A DNA stretch of 64,000 nucleotides from Aphrocallistes beatrix. Lineage: Eukaryota > Porifera > Hexactinellida > Sceptrulophora > Aphrocallistidae. Positions 11,910 to 26,200 of the stretch are shown piece by piece. Position 1 is the first letter of the stretch. Each line of letters begins with the position of its first letter. Under the pieces are notes generated by a model. That model was not told the origin of the DNA, did no database searches, and saw only the letters and a program-made list of their open reading frames with translations. The stretch lies in the NCBI GenBank assembly GCA_963281255.1, contig OY725503.1:682001-746000 (forward strand), in the 5' to 3' direction. The position numbers and the translations under genes are program-made.

Positions 11910-12460
11910 GGTCCTATTCATAGTAAAGTTTTCTACCCCTCTTCTAATTGATTGTCTGGGTCTGGTATATGTCTTATGTTTGGAATCTCCCATATTTGTA
12001 CATACCCTTTTGTAATGTTCTGTTTTTCAGTTTAATTAATATTTTCCTTTTATTTTTGTTTTTAGTTTGAGAAAGGGATTATTAATATGAATTTAAAACG
12101 AGAGTTGGCATTTATTATTGAAACGTTTTACACATTAGAAATTGCCTCTTACATACAATAGAACCTCTACAGATAAAACGAAACTCGGAATAATTCGAAC
12201 AGATATTTCATCTCCAACGGAGGAAAATACATGTAAATCAGTCTGTTAATACAAATTCCGGATAATACGAACAAATTTGGACCGTCCCCTGGTGTTTGTA
12301 TAACGAGGTTCTACTGTATTCCCAAATTAATTTCTGAATGTAATTGACATTAAAGAAGTTAATTATGAAAAATGTCCCAAGCTAACCGTGAAACTAAAAA
12401 CATACATTAGAAGCCTATTGTAAGTAATGTAAAATTGTAGAATTGAGCATATTATACAGC
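11910..12460. other. 3' intergenic region after the Rab gene
   Basis: AT-rich with no coding exon. Contains a pogo-like MITE at 12154-12318 and the outer end of the oxygenase inverted repeat from about 12380. Confidence 0.5.
12154..12318. mobile_element. Pogo-like MITE, family B copy 1
   Basis: TA-flanked. Ends ACAATAGAACCTCTACAG and (reverse) ACAGTAGAACCTCGTTATAC; interior shares ACGGAGGAAAATACATGTAA and GACCGTCCCC...TGGTGTT with other B copies. Confidence 0.8.
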
Positions 12461-13426
12461 TCATTTCTGCTCATTGGTCCTTCCTATTTTCCCTCTCCAA
12501 TGGTCCCCAGCAGTGATAGGAGAGTAAAGTTTATCTTTCTCATCCGTATAAGTGCCTTGTACCGATTCCACCATCGTGTCCTTATGCGGACTCGTGAAAC
12601 AAACCATGGATAGTCTCTCCATATCCAAATTGGAGTTGATTACACGATGCGTGGCAGATTTCCACTTTGCATTAGTCCACAGTTCTATTAAGTCTCCTGC
12701 GTTGATGACGAAACCGTGTTTCGGTGCTACAACCGGAAGCCACTCCCCCTTGTACTCTACCTCCAGAGAATGGTGTTTACCAGGACGGAGATAGTCGTCA
12801 GTTTTGAGGATAGTGAATCCATTATAGTCTGTGTGTGCGCCGTAACGTAATCCTTTTACTGCTGATTCTAGTTTGGGGTAGTAGCCCATTCGAAGGAATA
12901 TTTCTGGTTCTTCAAATGAAGATGTGAAAAAGTTAGGATCCAAATTCAATGCGACAGCTGACAATTTCATTAACTGTAGTAATAATTGACGGAGCGTTGC
13001 GAAGTAGGTTTGCATTGCCTCAGTATAGCCTGCGATGACGTCATCTAAACACACATTCCCATACCCTTGTACAGTGCCCATCGCAAACCCTAGACTCTCG
13101 ACTAAATCTGGAGGTGCGTGTGATGTTGCTTCCTCTCCAGTCGACTTGCTAACGGACTCTAACCCTCTCGGCACATACCCTCCCCCACCGTAGCCTTTGC
13201 CATAGCAATATTTCATTTTCTCTTCCTCGCCGAGATGGAAGAATGCTAGAGACTTTGAGTAGATATTTTCAATGATTTCTGGTTTAACTCCATGTCCAGT
13301 TATGATGCAAAATCCATAGTTTTCAAATGCTAATTTCCACTGTTTAACAACTTCACTCACTAACTCAGCTGTAGCGACTTCTAAGAATGGAGATATGTCT
13401 ATTGTAGGAATACCTGCTTCCGCCAT
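12461..13426 (-). CDS. 2-oxoglutarate/Fe(II) oxygenase, isopenicillin-N-synthase-like, copy 1
   Basis: 321 residues from the Met that matches the start of the divergent twin at 13667. The frame continues upstream to 13540, but that extension is not shared, so the shorter start is preferred. The N-terminal DIOX_N-like region begins IPTIDISPFLEVATAELV. The C-terminal double-stranded beta-helix has the Fe(II) triad His198, Asp200 (YGAHTDYNGFTIL) and His260 (ATHRVI), and the 2-oxoglutarate-binding RLS (271-273). Fe(II)-dependent oxidation of an unknown small molecule is expected; members of this class act in plant, fungal and some animal secondary metabolism, and the substrate cannot be read. It differs from its twin at 7 of 321 residues. 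The two start codons face each other about 240 bp apart, so they may share a bidirectional promoter. Confidence 0.88.
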   Translation of the reverse strand: MAEAGIPTIDISPFLEVATAELVSEVVKQWKLAFENYGFCIITGHGVKPEIIENIYSKSLAFFHLGEEEKMKYCYGKGYGGGGYVPRGLESVSKSTGEEATSHAPPDLVESLGFAMGTVQGYGNVCLDDVIAGYTEAMQTYFATLRQLLLQLMKLSAVALNLDPNFFTSSFEEPEIFLRMGYYPKLESAVKGLRYGAHTDYNGFTILKTDDYLRPGKHHSLEVEYKGEWLPVVAPKHGFVINAGDLIELWTNAKWKSATHRVINSNLDMERLSMVCFTSPHKDTMVESVQGTYTDEKDKLYSPITAGDHWRGKIGRTNEQK

Positions 13427-13666
13427 GCGAGAAATTGTATCTAGAAAAGCACAGTAACTCTGAACATTATATGTTTTGGTTAAGTAGTAACTCTGGAATG
13501 TTAAGCTAAATTTCTCGCTAAAGTTCACGTGCATTGTCATCCTATCGCATTTAACCTAATGTAGCGACAAACACGGTATCGTTATCATCGCAGGAGACTT
13601 AAGTCTACTTAACCAAAACTTATGTTCTGAGTTACTGTGCTTTTCTAGATACAATTCTTTCTTCGC

Positions 13667-14632
13667 ATGGCGGAAGCAGGTATTCCTACAATAGACATAT
13701 CTCCATTCTTAGAAGTCGCTACAGCTGAGTTAGTGAGTGAAGTTGTTAAACAGTGGAAATTAGCATTTGAAAACTATGGATTTTGCATCATAACTGGACA
13801 TGGAGTTAAACCAGAAATCATTGAAAATATCTACTCAAAGTCTCTAGCATTCTTCCATCTCGGCGAGGAAGAAAAAATGAAATATTGCTATGGCAAAGGC
13901 TACGGTGGGGGAGGGTATGTGCCGAGAGGGTTAGAGTCCGTTAGCAAGTCGACTGGAGAGGAAGCAACAGCACACGCACCTCCAGATTTAGTCGAGAGTC
14001 TAGAGTTTGTGATGGGCACTGTACAAGAGTATGGGGACGTGTGTTTAGATGACGTCATCGCAGGCTATACTGAGGCAATGCAAACCTACTTCGCAACGCT
14101 CCGTCAATTATTACTACAGTTAATGAAATTGTCAGCTGTCGCATTGAATTTGGATCCTAACTTTTTCACATCTTCATTTGAAGAACCTGAAATATTCCTT
14201 CGAATGGGCTACTACCCCAAACTAGAATCAGCTGTAAAAGGATTACGTTACGGCGCACACACAGACTATAATGGATTCACTATCCTCAAAACTGATGACT
14301 ATCTCCGTCCTGGTAAACACCATTCTCTGGAGGTAGAGTACAAGGGGGAGTGGCTTCCGGTTGTAGCACCGAAACACGGTTTCGTCATCAACGCAGGAGA
14401 CTTAATAGAACTGTGGACTAATGCAAAGTGGAAATCTGCCACGCATCGTGTAATCAACTCCAATTTGGATATGGAGAGACTATCCATGGTTTGTTTCACG
14501 AGTCCGCATAAGGACACGATGGTGGAACCGGTACAAGGCACTTATACGGATGAGAAAGATAAACTTTACTCTCCTATCACTGCTGGGGACCATTGGAGAG
14601 GGAAAATAGGAAGGACCATTGAGCAGAAATAA
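13667..14632 (+). CDS. 2-oxoglutarate/Fe(II) oxygenase, isopenicillin-N-synthase-like, copy 2
   Basis: 321 residues, about 98 percent identical to the minus-strand copy at 12461-13426. The Fe(II) ligands His198, Asp200 and His260 and the RLS motif are unchanged. The seven substitutions seen are Ser-Ala, Gly-Glu, Ala-Val, Gly-Glu and Asn-Asp clustered at residues about 107-126, plus Ser-Pro near 287 and Asn-Ile near the C-terminus. Both copies are open and probably functional. The sequence CTTTTCTAG just upstream of the start is also a possible splice acceptor, so a 5' leader exon is conceivable. Very recent duplication or ongoing gene conversion between the arms explains the identity. Confidence 0.88.
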   Translation: MAEAGIPTIDISPFLEVATAELVSEVVKQWKLAFENYGFCIITGHGVKPEIIENIYSKSLAFFHLGEEEKMKYCYGKGYGGGGYVPRGLESVSKSTGEEATAHAPPDLVESLEFVMGTVQEYGDVCLDDVIAGYTEAMQTYFATLRQLLLQLMKLSAVALNLDPNFFTSSFEEPEIFLRMGYYPKLESAVKGLRYGAHTDYNGFTILKTDDYLRPGKHHSLEVEYKGEWLPVVAPKHGFVINAGDLIELWTNAKWKSATHRVINSNLDMERLSMVCFTSPHKDTMVEPVQGTYTDEKDKLYSPITAGDHWRGKIGRTIEQK

Positions 14633-15361
14633 GCTGATAATATGCTCAATTCTACAATTTACATAACTTACAATATAGGACTTCTACTGTGTCTTTAGTT
14701 TCACGACTAACTTATAATTTTCAATTTCTCATATATTATTACAGGGGAAGGTTTTCTGCGGAGGGTGTTGTACCACTTTGACTAAAGCGAGCGTAGAAGC
14801 GGCCAATAGGGATGCCGTAAAAATTTTTATTCTTGGACACTCAACAGATAAGTTTACTATTAGGTAATTTATCCTGATACATCTGCCTCGAGTGAAGTAG
14901 TAGACTAGCACTCGTTGTGAGACAGTGAACTTTTTTTGAAAGTCGAAAGCTGTGAACAGAACTTAGGTGCTATTCTTTTAACTGCCACTTGTTTCAGACA
15001 TGTTCAATTCTTATTGTACATTCAAAATACCAAATAAAAGATCTAAGCTAAAAAAGGGATGGATTAACCATGTGGCAGAAGCGCATATTTAGCGAGTCCT
15101 GCGCTTTGGGGTCCCGAACCTTTTTAATCCCTATTTCAAACCAGAAAGTCTCAGAGTCCGCTGATCCCCAGGAACTGTTCGACGGGCTAAGTTCAGTTAA
15201 CTCACAGGTTACCCCCCTCCCCCCTGGATTCGCCTCTGGTTAGATGGTTCACTAAATCGTCATTTACTGCAGTAACTATTGTGGAAGTTGACCACTCATT
15301 CCAACTCTTAAATCATGATTTTGGCTGATTAATTTATATAATATCTACTAGCTATATTAGC
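14633..15361. other. Intergenic region before the hairpin-protein cluster
   Basis: Holds the last part of the oxygenase inverted repeat (to about 14712). Beyond that I see no coding exon, RNA gene or element with clear ends. Confidence 0.45.
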
Positions 15362-16658
15362 ATGGCCACTGCGAGCAATGAAGATTTAGAAAATCAATTG
15401 TCAGATCAAATCATTCAATTCCTCTCAAGAGAGAATGGAGGATCTCAGATCACAAATCAAACTCTCATCGACCAACTCGAAAAAACGCGAAAAGATCTGA
15501 AGAGTATGGAGATACGCCGTGGTCTGGAAGACTATCTTCTCAAATTTAATTTGAGTATCAATCGAGTCTGTTAAAAATGAACTTATAACAACTCCCCTTT
15601 CCTTTGCTGGTGACAAGATGGTATCAATGGCACGTAAAGTTAAATCGACTCTTACTTCTACCCCACTTCTACCCTACATCTACCCTAAAACTGGGAATAG
15701 TGGAGTCACTGGAGTGAATGAAAACAATTTGAATGGAACCCAAGAAATGATTCAAGACGAAGATATCAAGCTGCAAATTAAGATGGATAGGAATCTATCA
15801 AGAAAGGAACCTACTCTATGCATTCAACTTCTATCCAATCTTCGTGACTTGATTCACGAGGGTTTAGTTCTACACACAGAGTTGTATTTGATGGGAAATG
15901 AAGTGCAGGAGCTGATTGAGAATGTGAAATTGCTGAATTTACAAATCCCTTTATTCCCTGAAAGTAAATATAGACAGGAGCAAATGAACTTTGATCAAAT
16001 CTTCAAAAGAAATTCAACTAGTGTTTGCGTCGGTGGCGTATTAGGTGGCATAGCTGGGTTGGTAATTAGTGGCACATTTGCTGGTATTCTTGTAATGGCT
16101 CTGAAATACTTCTGCTGCTGCTCTTTCATTGGACACGCCCTACTTGGGATGGGATGCACTACTTGTGCCTTGAGTTGTCTCGGTCCGTTGCTAGGAGCTG
16201 CTGCCGTGGTTGGCTTATGTGTCACTCTAGGTGGCTTAGCTGGCTGGGCTTGGGACGTGGGACAAGATAGACGAAAGGAACTTGAAGAAATCTATAAATT
16301 TCGTCTCAAACTAGACGAATCGAAAATTGAACCGGAATTGAGAACATTCATTGACGAACTTAAGAAAATTAAGGAAGGTGCTAAGAGGGGATTACAGGAG
16401 AGAGAGGGCACTGATGGGGCAATATCTCCTTCCCAGTTCAATGTAATAATGAAAGCATACAAAGAATACCGAGAAACCTTTGATAGAGCGAAAAAAAGTT
16501 TTGGAAATAAAACGGAGGAGGAATTGCATCAAATCGTTAGGGTAGGCGCTACTGGTGCAATTGCACCTTTAGAGAAATCTTTCAAATTCTCTGAAAGTGA
16601 ATGTTGGGAGCTACTAGACGCTATTCATCAGATAATCCATCGAGATACTTCAGAATAG
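15362..16658 (+). CDS. Hairpin-family protein 1: helical protein with Gly-rich hydrophobic hairpin (frame break or 52-bp intron)
   Basis: Two frames: 15362-15574 (70 residues) and a second frame open from 15555, with an ATG at 15618, to 16658. They overlap at 15555-15571. Either a one-base frameshift or a 52-bp intron (15566-15617, GTCTGT...GACAAG with a pyrimidine tract) would join them into about 415 residues, the size of the paralogue at 19198. The order is helical N-terminus, amphipathic LLSNLRDLIHEGLVL segment, two long hydrophobic Gly/Cys/Ala-rich stretches (about residues 135-212 of the second frame, with CCCC and CTTCALSC), then a helical tail (MKAYKEYRETF...EEELHQIV...SECWELLDAIHQI) shared with the other two. 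No signal peptide. Function unknown; the layout resembles apolipoprotein L or helical membrane-inserting proteins, but only in architecture. Confidence 0.7.
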
Positions 16659-17291
16659 TTAGTAAAATCTCCCTGAATTTGTTACTCATGTATATATTAT
16701 TAGATGTTTTATTCGTTTATTTTTAGGCTAGTGCACAATATTAGCTTTTTGCTTAGGTGGTTAATAGTTTTGTGTTACGTGTGTTAGTATATGAGCTGAG
16801 TTAATGAGATAGGATCGTGATTTATTATTATCACATATGACCACTCCAAATAGCTTAACTATCACAAAGTATGTAGGTTAACTATTTTCTGGATTTTTTA
16901 AAATTAATTACAACTTTAAAAGTAAATATTATGAATCGAACTGCTTCATTTCGCAGGACATACATAGGGGACATACCATGTATTACGTCTATACCATTAA
17001 GTAGCTCCTGAAAAACTTCTCCATTAAAATGAAAAAAGTACAGGTGACTCCGCTTAATCGGGACACTTTGGTCCCAGATATTTTGTCCCGATTAAGCGGT
17101 TGTCCCAATTAAACGATGAAAACTAGTATTAGCTTCTATGTATGGGAACCATTCCGTTCCTGGAGACTTGCCCCAATTAAGCGATTGTCCCGATTAAGCT
17201 GAGTTGACTCTACCATATCAATCCTCAAATTCTGATAAAAATTTATGATAGGACACAAATAACTTAGTGACATAACCTTGTTTACATTAGA
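16659..17291. other. Region upstream of tankyrase exon 1
   Basis: AT-rich 3' end of the preceding gene, then a family A MITE (17039-17212) that ends about 80 bp before the tankyrase start codon and so lies in its promoter or leader. Confidence 0.5.
17039..17212. mobile_element. Pogo-like MITE, family A copy 2
   Basis: TA-flanked. Ends CAGGTGACTCCGCTTAATCG and (reverse) GAGTCAACTCAGCTTAATCG; interior TATTAGCTTCTATGTATGGG matches copies 1 and 8. Confidence 0.8.
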
Positions 17292-20200
17292 ATGGCAACA
17301 AGTGAAGACAAAGAAGAAACAACACAAACAAAAATAAATAGCACAACAACCAAATTAAACGTCACACAACCCGACACAGATAAGCCCCCAAACCACGACC
17401 CTCCCCCCCTCCTCCTCATCCCCTCCCTACAGAGACAGCCCCCCACACTAGAAGTAGCCAGCGACCCCACGGAATCCTCTGGGAAGAGCAAGAACTCGCG
17501 AATAGAACTTGAGCTGTTTGATAGTTGCAGGAAGGGCGATATCGATAGGATCCGTCAGCTGATAGAACAAAAAGTAGACATTAATGCGAAGGACCTTAGC
17601 GGGCGTAAGAGCACTGCTCTGCATTTCGCTGCAGGCTTCGGGAGAAAAGACGTAGTGGAATGCCTACTAGAGAAAGGCGTTCACGTTAACACACAAGATG
17701 ACGGTGGATTGATTCCTCTACATAATGCGTGTTCGTTCGGACACGCCGAGGTAGTGAGCTCCCTGTTACAGCATGGAGCTGATGCAAACAGCAGAGATAA
17801 GTGGGGTTATACACCTCTGCACGAGGCGAGTAATAAGGGTAAGGTATGTACTGTCAAGCAATTAACTACTCGTGTAAACTGGTGCAAACTAGTTGTACCT
17901 TTGCTTTATAACATTGAACTTATTATAGGATAAGGCGCCGTTATATGTTAATGATATGTTTTAAGTTTTTTTCTTGGAGTCACCAGGGTACACAATACAG
18001 ATCTATATACTACTCGTGATTTAGTTTACATTTAGTTCAATTGTTCGGTATAATCCATTACATATACTTCCTCGATAATTGCAAAGTTTGGCTAGTCTAT
18101 AGTATTGAGGAACATGTGTAAATCTGCCAGTAATTACTGCTTTGTGAATTGAGCTACACGTGTATATACGTACGCTTTCACTATTGATTACATAATATTG
18201 AGGTCTCAAATCTCTGAGTCTTTCCAATGTGATTGGTTGAGATGATCTCCTTTGGACTGAAACTGATACATATATATCTCAGCAGAATTGGATTAATTTC
18301 TGGAAATACAAGTTCATGTGATGCACACTAAGCAGCTTTATAGGATTATGACGAGATAAATGCATATCTATATTACCCAAATACTTTTGGCATCTAAGAT
18401 TTCACTGTTACAGTGACTTAATGATTTGTTTTAAATCTCATACTTACGTAGTATGCAAAATGCGTGGATATTTCCTTGGAAATTTATATCTGAAAACAGC
18501 ATACTGATTAGCAAATAAAATTTAAGAAAAACAATCTCTAAAATAGGATATATTTCCCTATTTGTGTAGATCTTTATTAGGGCATTAGTCGATCCGATCA
18601 CGATCCCCAAAAAGATCCTTTCAATAATAGTCAGAGGATACCATTTTTAGTACAGCTCCTGGAAGGAGATGCTTTATGGCATGGACGGCGTGCAATGTCC
18701 GTCCGTCTGCGGCAGCCTGGGGCGTACTTAGTGCTTAAGTTAGTATTCAAACCATAAAACACATTAAAAAATATATTTAATCAACATAAATTTCAACACT
18801 TTCACCTCCAACTTGGGGATTAAAAAGAAAAAGGATCGGATCGAATTCAGGAAAAGTTTCGATCCGATCCCGATCCTACTTTTAAAAAGGATCGTCGATC
18901 CGATCTCGATCCTCAAAAAAAGGATCGCGATCCGGATCTTTCGATCATGGATCGAAAGATCCTAATGCCCTAGTCTTTACTGCTATCCACAAATCCATTA
19001 TTCACACGACAGTACAATACTATTATGTTGCAGTATAGTACATTAATCTTTGTCTGATTCTGCACTGAATTTGTAGTTACAGTTCAATATCTATGCAATA
19101 CACGATGAACTGTCGATTAAGCATTGTGATAAGGCACTCAGTTTGTGTATATATAGAGTGAAGATAACACTCAATAATATACTGAAAATAAGTTATAATG
19201 ACTCAATACGCCGTGAAAGTGGTTGAAGACCTTGTTGAAAAGGACATCGATAAAGTTTTAGAGAGCCAAGGGAAAAAGGGGGAAGAAGAGATGAAAAATC
19301 TTATTGAGAGGGTATTTGAAGTCAGGTTTGACAATGAAGGGAACCTTACTCCTGACTCACTCACCAAGCTCGAGAGTTTATCGCTACGGGATAGTTTAGA
19401 GAAAATGAGCAGTTCTTTTGAAAACATTGACATGCTAGAAGTGACGAAGATCTACAGAGACATCCTGGAACGTGTTGACAGGATAGAGAATTATCTGGAC
19501 AGAACTCACATCTGCGATAACAAAATGCAACGAAGGGGGAACAGCATTCTAAATAATGGAAAACTAGTGAAACTCCTCAGAAGTATCATTGATAAAACGC
19601 GTGAAAAGATCGACAGAGGAATTGCACTGAATATCGAGATATCGTTTATTATCTCCGATTTCAGACGGTTGTTGAATGACGCGATGCATCTCGGCGATAA
19701 GCCACAAGCCCTGGAGAAATTCTGCCAGAACATCGATAGCTTCCTGCCAGCTAGTAAAATTGACAAGATAAACCAGGGTCAAGGTCTAACCATCGTGGAC
19801 AAACTCGCCTTGACTTCCATTGCGGAGCTTTTACGTACTAAACTCGCAGCTTTGGGCAACATAGGCATTGCCCTGGTCGTGATTCTCTGCGGGATTGGCG
19901 CCATTCTGATCGCTGTTGCGGTCATCGTGGTTTCTATCGTGGCCGTCTTGTTAGGGATAATTGGTGCGATTACCGGCAGTGTGGGAATGCTATTCAGCAT
20001 CCCCATCTTGGGCAGTTCTAGGAAAATGAAGTTAAACGCACTTATTAAAGAGTTAGAAGATCTACAAGGCAGCCTCGACTGGATTAACAAGCAGCTAGAG
20101 ATTGGACTGGATAGGGCGAAGCAAAGCTGTGATGAGAGGGGGCATAGCTACAGCATCCTGCTGCAAGCTTACAATGATTTTAAAGGGAAAATCGATAAAA

Positions 20201-23200
20201 CTCAGAAGACTGATAAGTATAAAGATTCGAATGAAGAGGAAGTAATCGCATACATACTCGATGTGGATTCTACCATGGGAGGTGTGACTACTGGTATTCA
20301 GGAGAGGTTCAGTATTGAGCAGAAAGACGCTTGGAAGATTTTGATGTTTATAGATGGCTGTACTAAGCTGGAGAATGAAGGTGTTCTGACATTAATTCAA
20401 GAGGTCAATTAATTCCATTTTTTTATGCTTTCTAATATTTCTCCACCCCTTGTGATATCTCGCTTGATATTTTTCAATTAATTCTAATACGTGTATAAAA
20501 TATTATGAAAAGGAATTGTAAAAAATTAAAAGAAAGGACAATCTTAAAATATTAATTTCAAATGATTTAACTACTCTACAAATCATGATAACATTTGTTT
20601 GCACAATAACATTAAACTCTATAAAACCCTATTAATTCATGATCAGTAATAATTCAGTAATAATTCTGAACCTAAAATTGCAAGGTTCAGTTGATTCATG
20701 AGCACAATTACAACTTATTAGTAAATTTAAATACAGTCGACTCCGCTTAATAGAGTCACTGTTTAATCGAGTCAACCGCTTAATCGGCGAAAATGTCCTC
20801 TGACCGATGTGACCCTATTAATAAGTGGAGTCGACTGTATTTCTACAATTATTGATAATTATGTATATTCCCATAACGTGTATAAACTTGTGATGAAAGG
20901 TATCAAAAGGATAGAACGAAATTTATTTCACAAAATGAAGTTAGAGATTAGTATGGACCCTATCTACCCGTGACGTGACGTAGTAGACACTATGTCTTTC
21001 ACTCAGCGCAATCTTTTAGATAGAGAATTATCGTCCAGGCGTGTTCTTTATCGATGTTGAAAGTATTCATTATAGGCTGTGCGCAGTCAGATACAACTAT
21101 CATTACCTGTTGAATCTCCTCTTCACATAGGTGGGAGGAGTTTCTGTACTGCCCTCTCACGTGCAAATACTTATCGTAACTCTTCATCAGTGCATCTAGC
21201 GGAGTTTGGAACTGCCTTATCTGTTCCCCTGCACCCTGCACAATACTCCCCAACTCTCCATTCCAGGACTCCACCAAGGATTTGAACTCTACCATCGAAA
21301 CGAGCATGGAATGGTAGGTCTCTCTCCGCACTTTCCCAGATTTTATTTCATTTATAAACTTTGAAATGCTCAGACCAACGAATGCCCCGAATGCGGCCCC
21401 TATGGTCCCGCCGGCCAGTGCCGCCCCTAAGCTCCCAATCGCGCCGATTCCCCCGAAAATACCCGCCAAGACAGTGGCTAATCCAACCCCTGCCACTGCC
21501 CCCACTACCACCCCCGCTCCGACTGAAACCATCAACGCCGTGTCCACACCGGCGAATTCTAGTGAGCTCAGATTACAATCTCCCGACTCTCTAAATCCGA
21601 ATTGGTCCGAAGGTTCCTCCGACATATTTTTCAGCAAGAACAGGATTTGACTTAAAGCCGCATCTCCTGGGAAATGAGTGTTAAGGTTTAGAAGTAGTTC
21701 TTCTATGCTTCCGGTTATCCGGTCTGCTTTATCCAGGAGAACGATTCCCTCTCCTAGCAACTCTTTTATTTTCACGATTTGATAATTGATCAAGTCTTTG
21801 GCTTCGTTGCTACGGAGGAACTTATCTGTCAACTTGACCAGCACTCCATCTCTCTTGTTTCTCTCTTTCAGCATCGATTCAAGCTGTTTCAGTTCCTGCA
21901 GGAGATTCTGTAGTTTGTCTTTATAGAGTCCGCAAGTCGTCCTTGTTTCGCGCATTATTCTCCTGATCTCGTGTATGCTGGTGTTGAATTGTCGGTTATT
22001 GCTGTCGAAGGGTCTGTCTGTTGGGTTGCTGAGGTAGCTAGCTACCCTCCTAGCCTCTGCTTCAGCCATTCCGAGCTAAGTACTTAAGTGGTGGCCAAAG
22101 GTTTAGCATAAAAAGTATTTAGTGTACAGAATTTGTGCATAATATTCTACAATAAACTCGAATTTACCAATAAACAATTGTATGTAATAGTAATGACGTA
22201 ATTTTGTTTGTTTTCTATTTCAGTTTTGTGCACACAATTCGAACTGCAAAATTTTGACTCAAAAAAGACATTATAAACTTTAAAAAGTTTTTTTACGATT
22301 TGGTCCCTTTATCTTAGAGAATTAATTAATTACGAAAAATTGTATTTCGTATGTACAATATCTCAAAATGTGCAGATTAAAAAATAGGAATTTATCTCAC
22401 TCAAACACATAATCTAATCATTTGATATGAGCCTACTGCTAAGACACGAGAAGCTAGATTTTACTCAATATACCCATGAATATATCTATGTACAATGGAG
22501 ACATCCAGGCACTTTAAGAATGACTTCTCTAGTTAGATGCATAGAGTGTGCATGGATATGTAATACGGTACGCAGGCCCCGTCCTTTAAGCGAGTTAAAA
22601 ATTTTCCGCCCTTGGCAAACTGAATTTCTGCCGTCCCCTATTTTCTCTATTTGCCCCCTCCCCCCCATCCCCCCTCTCAACCCTTATGCCGCCCTCAGCT
22701 TACCTCTATTTAGACTTGTGTGTTTCGTAAATTCAAATTTTTTAAAATTCTGCTCCCTAAATTGCTTCGCCTTAGGCAACTGCCCAGTTCTAATAATAGA
22801 CCCGTCATAGTAACAGTAATAAACGGATAATATAATTGTATCTATCAGTTCGCTTGTTTAATGAATCCTTTCTAGTGAATGTTTGTATTAAATTTTCAGT
22901 TCCCCAACATTGCAATTGACTTGTTTCTTCTGAAACACACAACATCTAAATCTCTGTATTGCATAGGCGAGCGTGTGCACAGCTCTTCTCCAGTACAAAG
23001 CTGACACTACAATCCGTAACACAGATGGAAAGACCGCCATAGAGCTCACACAAGATGATCAGGTTAAACAGGTGCTGAGTGGGGAGCTCAGCATTGAAGA
23101 GTTGCTTGATGCTGCGAAGTCAGGGAATGAGGAGTTGTTAACAATATTACTGACACCACTGAATGTTAACTGCCATGCTAGTGATGGACGTAAGAGCACA

Positions 23201-26200
23201 CCGTTACATTTGGCTGCCGGTTATAATAGAATTAGGATTGTGAAGATTTTGCTACAGAAAGGAGCGAATGTACATGCCAAGGATAAAGGTTAATATTACA
23301 GTAGTGCATTCACGAATCAGAGAAAATACTGTTAACTTTCTATATAAAAACTTTAAGAAAGTTCTTTTAATTATCATAACATCGCTACTACCATGTGCAG
23401 TTTTTTTCCTGTATCATCCGTATGATCTAATTATTCAACTCAAACTATGTTCTTCTAACGTACATCTCGAAAATCTTTATTTCACAAGTTAATTTATTGG
23501 AAAATAAAAGTCTGAAGAGAAATCTAAGTGATAAATAGTATTTCCGTTTAGAAAGTTTACTTCATCATGAGAATAGGATGATTATTACTGTATTCTAATA
23601 CATGCGTTTTATTTACAGATGACAAAGTTATTTAGTTTAAGAATGTTCGAAGTGGAGATGATTCTGCACAGTGTACCACCTGGGTATGATATCACATCCT
23701 TAAAATGTACTTGTAATGCGTTTTAAAGCAGAATTTGAACGTAGCTATGTCTCTAAAGTACACATGCGATGATATTTAATTGCAATAAGACAGTCCTAAC
23801 TCGTGTATATATCCCGATAGGTGGTCTAGTGCCATTGCATAACGCATGTTCATACGGACACCTGGAAGTGGCAGAACTCTTGGTCAATCACGGGGCTGAC
23901 GTCAACTCTATGGACCTATGGCAGTTCACGCCACTTCATGAAGCGGCCTCCAAGGGGAAGATGGAGGTGTGCTCCTTCCTCTTGGCTCACGGGGCCAACC
24001 CGGCTCTCTTCAACTGTCACAACAACTCCGCACTCTACCTAGCCCCCAGCCAGGAGATGTCCAACCGGATTTCCTTCGAGTACAAGGCGTACTCCCTTCA
24101 CGCCGCTGCCAGCTCCTGGTACGTTAATAGGCTCACCAAGCCATTGTTCCCAACATGGAGCATATCAGTGGTTTTAATAATACAGTCGACTCCGCTTAAT
24201 AGGGTCACATCGGTCAGAGGACATTTCGCCCCGATTAAACGGAGAACCCTATTAACCAAAAATATTTTGTATTAACTTCTATGTGTGAGAGCTATTCAGG
24301 TCCTGCCAAAATTGGCACAATTAAGCGGTTTACCCGATTAATTAATATTAAACAGTGGCCCTATTAATTATTACCCTGGAACGACTTGGGGTCAAAGGTA
24401 TAAATAGAAATGACCCCACTTTCATTTTCACTTTCAGTTTACTTTCAATTCACTTTCATTTTCACTTCAACATTCCAGGACGTATCAGGGATAAGCAGAG
24501 TCAACTGTAATTAATTAATTAATTTAATGAATCAGCTTCCGTTTTGAATATCTTATTTTCGAAACTATATGATAAATTATTTGTTTACTTTTGTTTATAT
24601 AGTTACATAAAGTAAACGAATTACAAAAATAGGCTAGAGACTAGCTTAGTAGAGAGTTAGAAGAAACATTCAATCGTTTCCTATCAAAGAAACTATTTAT
24701 TGTTTCTTCTAACTCTCTACTAAGCTAGTCTCTAGCCTATTTTTGTAATTTGTTTACTCTATGTAACTATTGTATACAAAAGTAAACAAATAATTTACGT
24801 AGAGATTACTAATAGAGGAGTTACTAATAAGCAAATTCCACTTTTAACTATTTTCAACAGCGATCTGTTCCAACTGAAGAAGCTAGCCTCCCCTGACACG
24901 ATAAACTTCCAACACCCTCAGACACAGAACTCCCCACTACACGACTGTGTCATCAGCAGCAGTGGGAAGAGGAGACAGGCAGTGGAACTGTTGGTGAAGC
25001 GAGGAGCCGACCTTTGTCTGCCAAACCTACAGAAGCAAACTGCTCTGCACTTATCTGTGTCCAAGCAGCATTACGACGCCACTGAGGTAATTACTCAACT
25101 AAATTACAGTGGACTTCGTTAATACGAACACGGATATGGGAATAGATATGTTATCCCGACGGAGGAAAATACCTGTAAATCACTCCGGTTAAGACGAAGA
25201 AATTTCGACCGTCCCTGGTGTTCGTATTAACGAGGTTCTACTGTATGCTAAAGGGAACTTGGGCATGCCTAATTTCCGGGACGGGACAGGATCCTGTCCC
25301 GGAAATTAGGTATCTTAACCCGTCCCGTCCCGGAAATTAGGTACCTTTTCTGTCCCGTCCCGGAGATTAGGCACCTTGACTCATCCCGTCCCGGAAATTA
25401 GGCATGCCCAGGGAACTTTAACTGTAGAATGCCCAGCATTTATATGACTTCGCATTTTTATGGCTTCAGTTGCATAAAAAATGGCTGGGAGACATCCGTG
25501 ATATCGGGGACACTGTGTCCCCAGTGGGCATTCTACGGTTTAATTAGAAAGAAAAAAAACACTGGACCAAAAAGTTGCTGAAATTTGTAGTTCTGTACTA
25601 AAACGCCCAAAATTTACAAATTTTAACGTTTTTCCCACAAAAGTGTGCATTTTCTAATCCAATTTAGTCCCCTTTAATGCAATTAATAACCCTAATTACT
25701 ATCGCGAAGTAGATTATAATATTTGCTTGTATTTCCAGGTTCTTCTCCTTAACGGCGCTTTAGTGAATTCTCTCAACGGGGACGGACAGACCGTACTGCA
25801 CACAGCTCTCTCCCTGGACTGCCCTCTCCTCACCAGACTCCTGTTGGACCATGGTGCAGACCCTGATATTTCACAGTTGGAGGTCCCGAAACCCAGATCC
25901 CTCGCCGGTCCCAATACTCTCAGTCTTTTAGAGGAACTCCCGCACTCCGAGAGGAAACTGTTCCGAGAGAAAGATTTCCTGGACGCTTCCAAGGTCAGCA
26001 ATCAGCTGATACAATAATATTAAATTCTTGCCAGCAGAGATGTACAGTAGAATATCGTTAAACGAACAAATATTTTGTCCCGTACGGAGGAAAATACATG
26101 TAAATCACTCCGGTTAAACGAATTCCGATAAGACGAACAAATTTCGACCATCCCTGGTGCTAGTATTAATGAGGTTATACTGTTGATAGACTCGTATGTA

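Follow-up and report, generated by a model that had tools for sequence, protein, structure and literature searches.

What kind of protein is encoded by three short, mostly intron-free genes lying in and beside the tankyrase gene is the question raised by the stretch C17:682001-746000 of the hexactinellid sponge Aphrocallistes beatrix (contig OY725503.1), a window of 64,000 nucleotides in a genome of 100.5 Mb in 28 contigs. The comparisons described here indicate that the encoded proteins, referred to as P1, P2 and P3, belong at the margin of a more extensive family of this genome, the members of which may insert a hydrophobic hairpin into membranes. P2 (19198..20412, plus strand, 404 aa) and P3 (20999..22069, minus strand, 356 aa) each consist of one uninterrupted frame that opens with ATG and have no introns, exactly as an original prediction made from the letters of the window had delimited them. 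The same prediction read P1 as one frame from 15362, which could not be upheld: the ATG at 15362 opens a region (15362..15571, plus strand, with MATASNEDLENQ... in the ATG frame) that is out of frame with the main open frame at 15555..16658 (plus strand, 367 aa from stop to stop). P1 may thus start later, or its 5' part may contain a frame break or a short intron, the last being plausible because a 67-nt GT-AG intron is present in the neighbouring eIF2-gamma gene of the window; P1 may therefore not be intron-free.

Each of the three proteins possesses one hydrophobic Gly/Ala/Val block in the middle of the chain, as had been predicted for all of them, namely residues 153-236 in P1, 210-274 in P2 and 167-240 in P3. 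The blocks are 84, 65 and 74 residues long and contain 2, 3 and 3 charged residues as well as 17, 9 and 17 Gly in P1, P2 and P3, respectively. They are surrounded by helical flanks and followed by a common C-terminal EEE...W module with the general form AY/SYxxY/F, EEE run, F...W and then hydrophobics: KAYKEY in P1, QAYNDF in P2 and KSYDKY in P3 precede the EEE run, after which CW, AW and AW are found. Accordingly, the foreseen EEE run and the AW or CW occur in all three proteins, and the foreseen AY occurs in P1 and P2, with SY in its place in P3. The amphipathic segment described for each protein did not hold for P2, in which MAFFT aligned with P1 and P3 a different stretch from the one originally chosen. 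A signal peptide was recognised in none of P1-P3, neither in the original prediction nor upon reading of the N-termini, for which no predictor was run.

The proposal that the three proteins are divergent paralogues was evaluated by setting hhalign scores against 200 block-wise shuffles in which the composition of the three blocks was kept. The scores of 39.1 for P1-P3 and of 37.4 for P2-P3 were not attained in any of the 200 shuffles, and the score of 28.2 for P1-P2 was attained in 8 of 200; the aligned stretches were short (81, 26 and 65 columns for the three pairs of window proteins). In BLASTP comparisons among the three, P2-P3 alone was notable (E 0.001 over 150 aa), and the kinship signal of the three proteins was mostly C-terminal. 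On the strength of these alignments, P1, P2 and P3 are regarded as distant and divergent relatives, the link between P1 and P2 being marginal. A tree was dropped as evidence for a clade of the window proteins, since its split (90/93) was under the starring limit and its branches were long.

Furthermore, the family is not restricted to the three genes of which it was first thought to consist. A search of the genome with P1 gave weak matches on contig C4 (E 0.007 and 0.01), and single-sequence searches with P2 and P3 found no paralogue in the genome; when one C4 member was used as the query, 36 of the 40 matches fell at C4:748-820 kb, and the remainder included the P1 locus (E 0.10). The count of paralogues revealed at C4:748-820 kb a tandem array of 19 open frames of at least 187 aa, organized in two runs, 748-786 kb mostly on the minus strand and 790-819 kb on the plus strand. 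In addition, three satellite copies lie at C4:1.165-1.170 Mb, of which two extend over several frames, and C6 carries a decayed copy with four stops. The divergent member at C4 785212 was tied to the family through its own search (E 2.5e-4). For profile comparisons, a core C4 profile was built from 14 sequences, 6 of the 20 C4 frames being left out as incomplete or odd. With this profile, P1 reached 58.1, as compared to 36.0 for the highest of 200 shuffles, and P3 reached 42.8, as compared to 40.9 for the highest of 200 shuffles, in an alignment of only 18 columns; the profile of C4 plus P1 scored 58.8 against P3 over 104 columns (shuffle maximum 43.2). P2 showed no signal with the C4 profiles, given that 60, 147 and 145 of 200 shuffles scored as well. 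Due to these scores relative to the shuffles, P1 and P3 are tied to the C4 array, P1 being the nearest of the three, and P2 is tied to it through P3 only. We therefore consider P1-P3 as outlying members, by sequence, of one larger lineage-expanded, tandemly duplicated and fast-diverging family of the same genome. Within the C4 array, a frame at C4:774976-776886 (L042:2976-4886) was found to encode a ubiquitin domain (E 2e-11) and to match PARP below the cut-off (0.0046); the window genes lie in or beside the PARP gene tankyrase, which is possibly a coincidence.

The C4 copies are under loose purifying selection, as seen from dN/dS values of 0.41-0.71 in 8 of 66 C4 pairs at identities of at least 55%. 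These values below 1 and the long intact C4 frames speak against genes that travel as cargo of a virus or mobile element, or that are functionless retrocopies, an explanation which we regard as highly improbable. It would fit the position of the intron-free P2 and P3 between exons of another gene, the decayed copy on C6 and a fragment copy on C7. The latter, at C7:658942-659175 (L048:4942-5175), duplicates 234 bp of the P1 hairpin region (15921..16154, plus strand) at 93.6% identity; it is located between two MFS transporter frames and has stops in its own frame. As predicted, the genes are interleaved with tankyrase: P1 lies upstream of it, and P2 and P3 lie between its first two recognised ankyrin exons, 17290..17848 (ending at about 17843) and 23040..23290 (approximate limits, including 23174-23200), both on the plus strand. 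P2 and P3 are placed inside the tankyrase gene because its recognised ankyrin exons end at about 17843 and resume at 23174-23200, P3 being on the opposite strand; the exon scan was a motif search, so that a small unrecognised exon between about 17843 and 23174 is possible. The self-comparison of the window listed no repeat pair bracketing the genes. Moreover, searches of collections without animal genomes confirmed no relative among viral contigs (queries one C4 member and P3), gave no match among plasmids (query C4:1167299) and yielded 71 pattern stretches, none of them confirmed, among genome contigs (query the C4:1167299 protein).

The hydrophobic part of the family varies considerably. At the threshold used, 18 of 20 C4 frames have a hydrophobic stretch, ranging from two separate transmembrane-like pieces up to one block of 97 residues. 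The members at C4 758924 and 800487, with two transmembrane-like stretches and a polar loop between them, had been put down as hairpin-less by a first crude measure, which was rejected as both stretches are present. The members at C4 754860 and 785212 keep the flanks and have no hydrophobic stretch at the threshold, 754860 sharing 76% and 72% identity with two members in which such stretches are present. Just after the block, the R239 column is at least 90% invariant across 16 sequences, and the long helix then follows. The main rival explanation, namely that the proteins are resident hairpin membrane proteins of an organelle-shaping or glycine-zipper, interferon-inducible-27-like kind without lytic role, would be in line with the very Gly-rich blocks of P1-P3 and with the two C4 members that carry two ordinary transmembrane-like stretches around a polar loop. 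We consider it rather unlikely, in view of the members that retain the flanks without a hydrophobic stretch and of the tandem birth-and-death arrays and fast divergence of this family, which are less usual for housekeeping membrane shapers.

The family had been called unrecognised, and indeed none of P1-P3 matched a Pfam family above its cut-off; no publication was found whose title describes it, which is not proof of its being unpublished. Apolipoprotein L proteins display helices, a hydrophobic hairpin and helices in this order and are encoded by clustered, rapidly diverging genes, and the part order and the clustered, fast-evolving genes observed here would be in accordance with divergent relatives of them. 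The resemblance suggested in the original prediction is, however, without sequence support: the complete Pfam lists at E ≤ 10, drawn up for P1, P2, P3 and three C4 members, contain no apolipoprotein L (PF05461) in 6 of 6 cases, which makes such a kinship very unlikely. PF05791 did not appear in these six lists either. A search of the genome with PF05461 gave no match, but is uninformative because its control matched nowhere either. Library scans of Pfam, NCBIfam and PHROGs were carried out with a 16-member alignment (A6), which returned scattered weak matches in Pfam (best E 3.8e-4 among the best 25 of 44 families) and PHROGs (best E 2.2e-4 among the best 25 of 64) and 16 families at E ≤ 1 in NCBIfam; across these scans NF033928 (alpha-xenorhabdolysin A) alone stood out. 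A death-effector domain at the N-terminus of the C4 proteins was dropped as a candidate (E 0.49).

The NF033928 profile was matched by the protein at C4:1167299 with E 4.1e-7, protein residues 196-260 aligning with profile positions 208-272 of 339, so that, with almost no shift in register, the match takes in the second half of its block and the helix that follows. The 200-residue core of this protein gave E 4.8e-6, and local shuffles of the matching stretch found NF033928 in 0 of 9 cases. Additionally, YaxA was the top match of this protein in PDB sequence searches, although a non-significant one (E 0.13); such searches with A1, P3, A5, A6 and the C4:1167299 protein gave nothing below E 0.016. 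We take the NF033928 match as a hint and not as family membership. Descent from the ClyA superfamily, i.e., alpha-pore formers by origin and action of the Xax/Yax, Nhe/Hbl or Ahl type, acquired or ancient, now intracellular and diversified, would explain this match and the rank of YaxA. It would also be in line with the real HBL-domain genes of the same genome and with a size and block position akin to those of AhlB, for which a published description gives a hydrophobic head made of G176-A201 and V212-L234, the chain extending to A359 (PMC6602965). The paralogues without hydrophobic block may further be compared to the component of tripartite systems that, according to the same source, has only an amphipathic tongue (PMC6602965). 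Such a descent is nevertheless judged unlikely, considering, among the points given below, that the search with NF033928 gives below-cut-off matches in 6 of 14 control genomes too. The HBL genes (Bacillus_HBL, PF05791), which were met via the NF033928 and PF05791 searches, are genuine HBL genes in the assembly of this animal: 12 of 21 PF05791 matches in the genome were above the cut-off. Five frames of 1065-1072 aa carry two HBL domains each, four of them at C12:75771-100668 and one at C9:938177-940213, and shorter HBL genes, one with stops, are located at C17:1138443-1140085. In the gene at C12:97.6-100.8 kb (L058 = C12:97300-100900), the two HBL domains share 52% identity, and the XaxA-type profile is the only one matched by a third stretch. 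Contamination of the assembly is possible, although the contigs carrying the HBL genes are 4-5 Mb long.

From the layout, the behaviour of the array and the hint from the XaxA profile we infer that these otherwise soluble helical proteins might insert a hairpin into membranes, most likely in defence, a reading which is possible and which we favour tentatively. In this layout, an N-terminal helical region would come first, then the Gly/Ala/Val hydrophobic hairpin in the centre, and after it a long helix and a small module of helices at the C-terminus. The AlphaFold models of P3 and P2 both show a long helix after the block (P3 250-311, P2 274-336) and short C-terminal helices, with moderate confidence confined to the C-terminal ~70 residues, and their agreement lends weak support because the same three sequences were used for both models. 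We propose that the resting protein would be a soluble cytosolic one, its hairpin being tucked in or covered by partners, and that on a trigger the flanking helices would rearrange and the hairpin would enter the membrane as a helical pair. The inserted form would probably be an oligomer disturbing or permeating the membrane, and self-defence or conflict with microbes would be a plausible purpose.

Several results weigh against membrane insertion in defence, and those on the profile match, the HBL domains and the fold weigh against ClyA descent as well. The NF033928 match reached 29.6 bits as compared to a curated cut-off of 125 and occurred in one member out of 16. Part of it is due to composition, because one shuffle matched the ClyA-type HblD at E 7.5e-4; another matched an inclusion-membrane protein at 0.0038. 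When C4, window and 1167299 sequences were aligned by hhalign with the HBL domains of this genome, the probability stayed at or below 5.5% in 12 of 12 comparisons. Structure prediction gave a mean pLDDT of 42.6 for P3 and 42.4 for P2, the fold was not obtained and the fold comparison failed: the matches of these low-confidence models (pLDDT ~42) were generic helical ones, with no five-helix bundle seen. P2, as described above, is without signal against the C4 profiles. Finally, dN/dS in the middle third was 0.24-1.04 and undefined in one pair, which indicates that a faster-evolving hairpin is not general.

A wider proposal, which we put forward as improbable, is that this animal genome holds an unrecognised, tandemly expanding intracellular hairpin-inserting family as an animal equivalent of alpha-pore systems with several components, separate from gasdermins, MLKL and apolipoprotein L, in which block-free paralogues could be partners or inhibitors and alongside which the genuine HBL-domain genes occur. 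If true, one family among the early immune effectors of this animal would escape current profile libraries and have a birth-and-death array of its own, and the short list of eukaryotic helical-hairpin inserting killers or breachers would be widened. As the genes are short and mostly intron-free, the insertion reading is directly testable. Regardless of its outcome, three neighbouring genes can seem orphans and yet belong to a family that is visible only by profiles built within the genome.

The surroundings of the three genes comprise, besides tankyrase and eIF2-gamma, genes for a CSDE1-like cold-shock protein, an Ig/TSP1 protein, a Ras GTPase and a zinc carboxypeptidase; together these neighbours mark the window as animal DNA. 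At 12379-14713, a head-to-head inverted repeat (94.5% identity over 2361 columns) contains two copies of one gene, which resembles a 2-oxoglutarate oxygenase by reading of the sequence, no search having been made for the family name. A dispersed short repeat at 17034-17212 and 20726-20857 flanks the gene cluster and occurs in both orientations, with further copies near 1.7, 24.2, 29.6, 44.3 and 54.5 kb, the copies being 74-94% identical. Just upstream of P2, at 18578-18975, inspection by eye suggests a possible small element with inverted repeats, in which AGGGCATTAG ... CTAATGCCCT enclose GATCC-rich sequence.

Among known systems, the type III secretion translocators of the IpaB/AopB/SseD type gave matches none of which lay outside the range given for unrelated helical bundles, and a secretion context is absent here. 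Apolipoprotein L differs in the lack of any sequence match in the six Pfam lists and is alike in the order of parts and in clustered rapid divergence. The ClyA superfamily (XaxA/YaxA, Nhe/Hbl, AhlB) differs in that 15 of 16 members of the sponge family show no profile match and in that no five-helix bundle (alpha1, 2, 3, 6 and 7), described as common to the ClyA family (PMC6162564), is seen in the low-confidence models, whereas the chain length, the hydrophobic hairpin in the middle of the protein and the long helices on both sides of it are alike.

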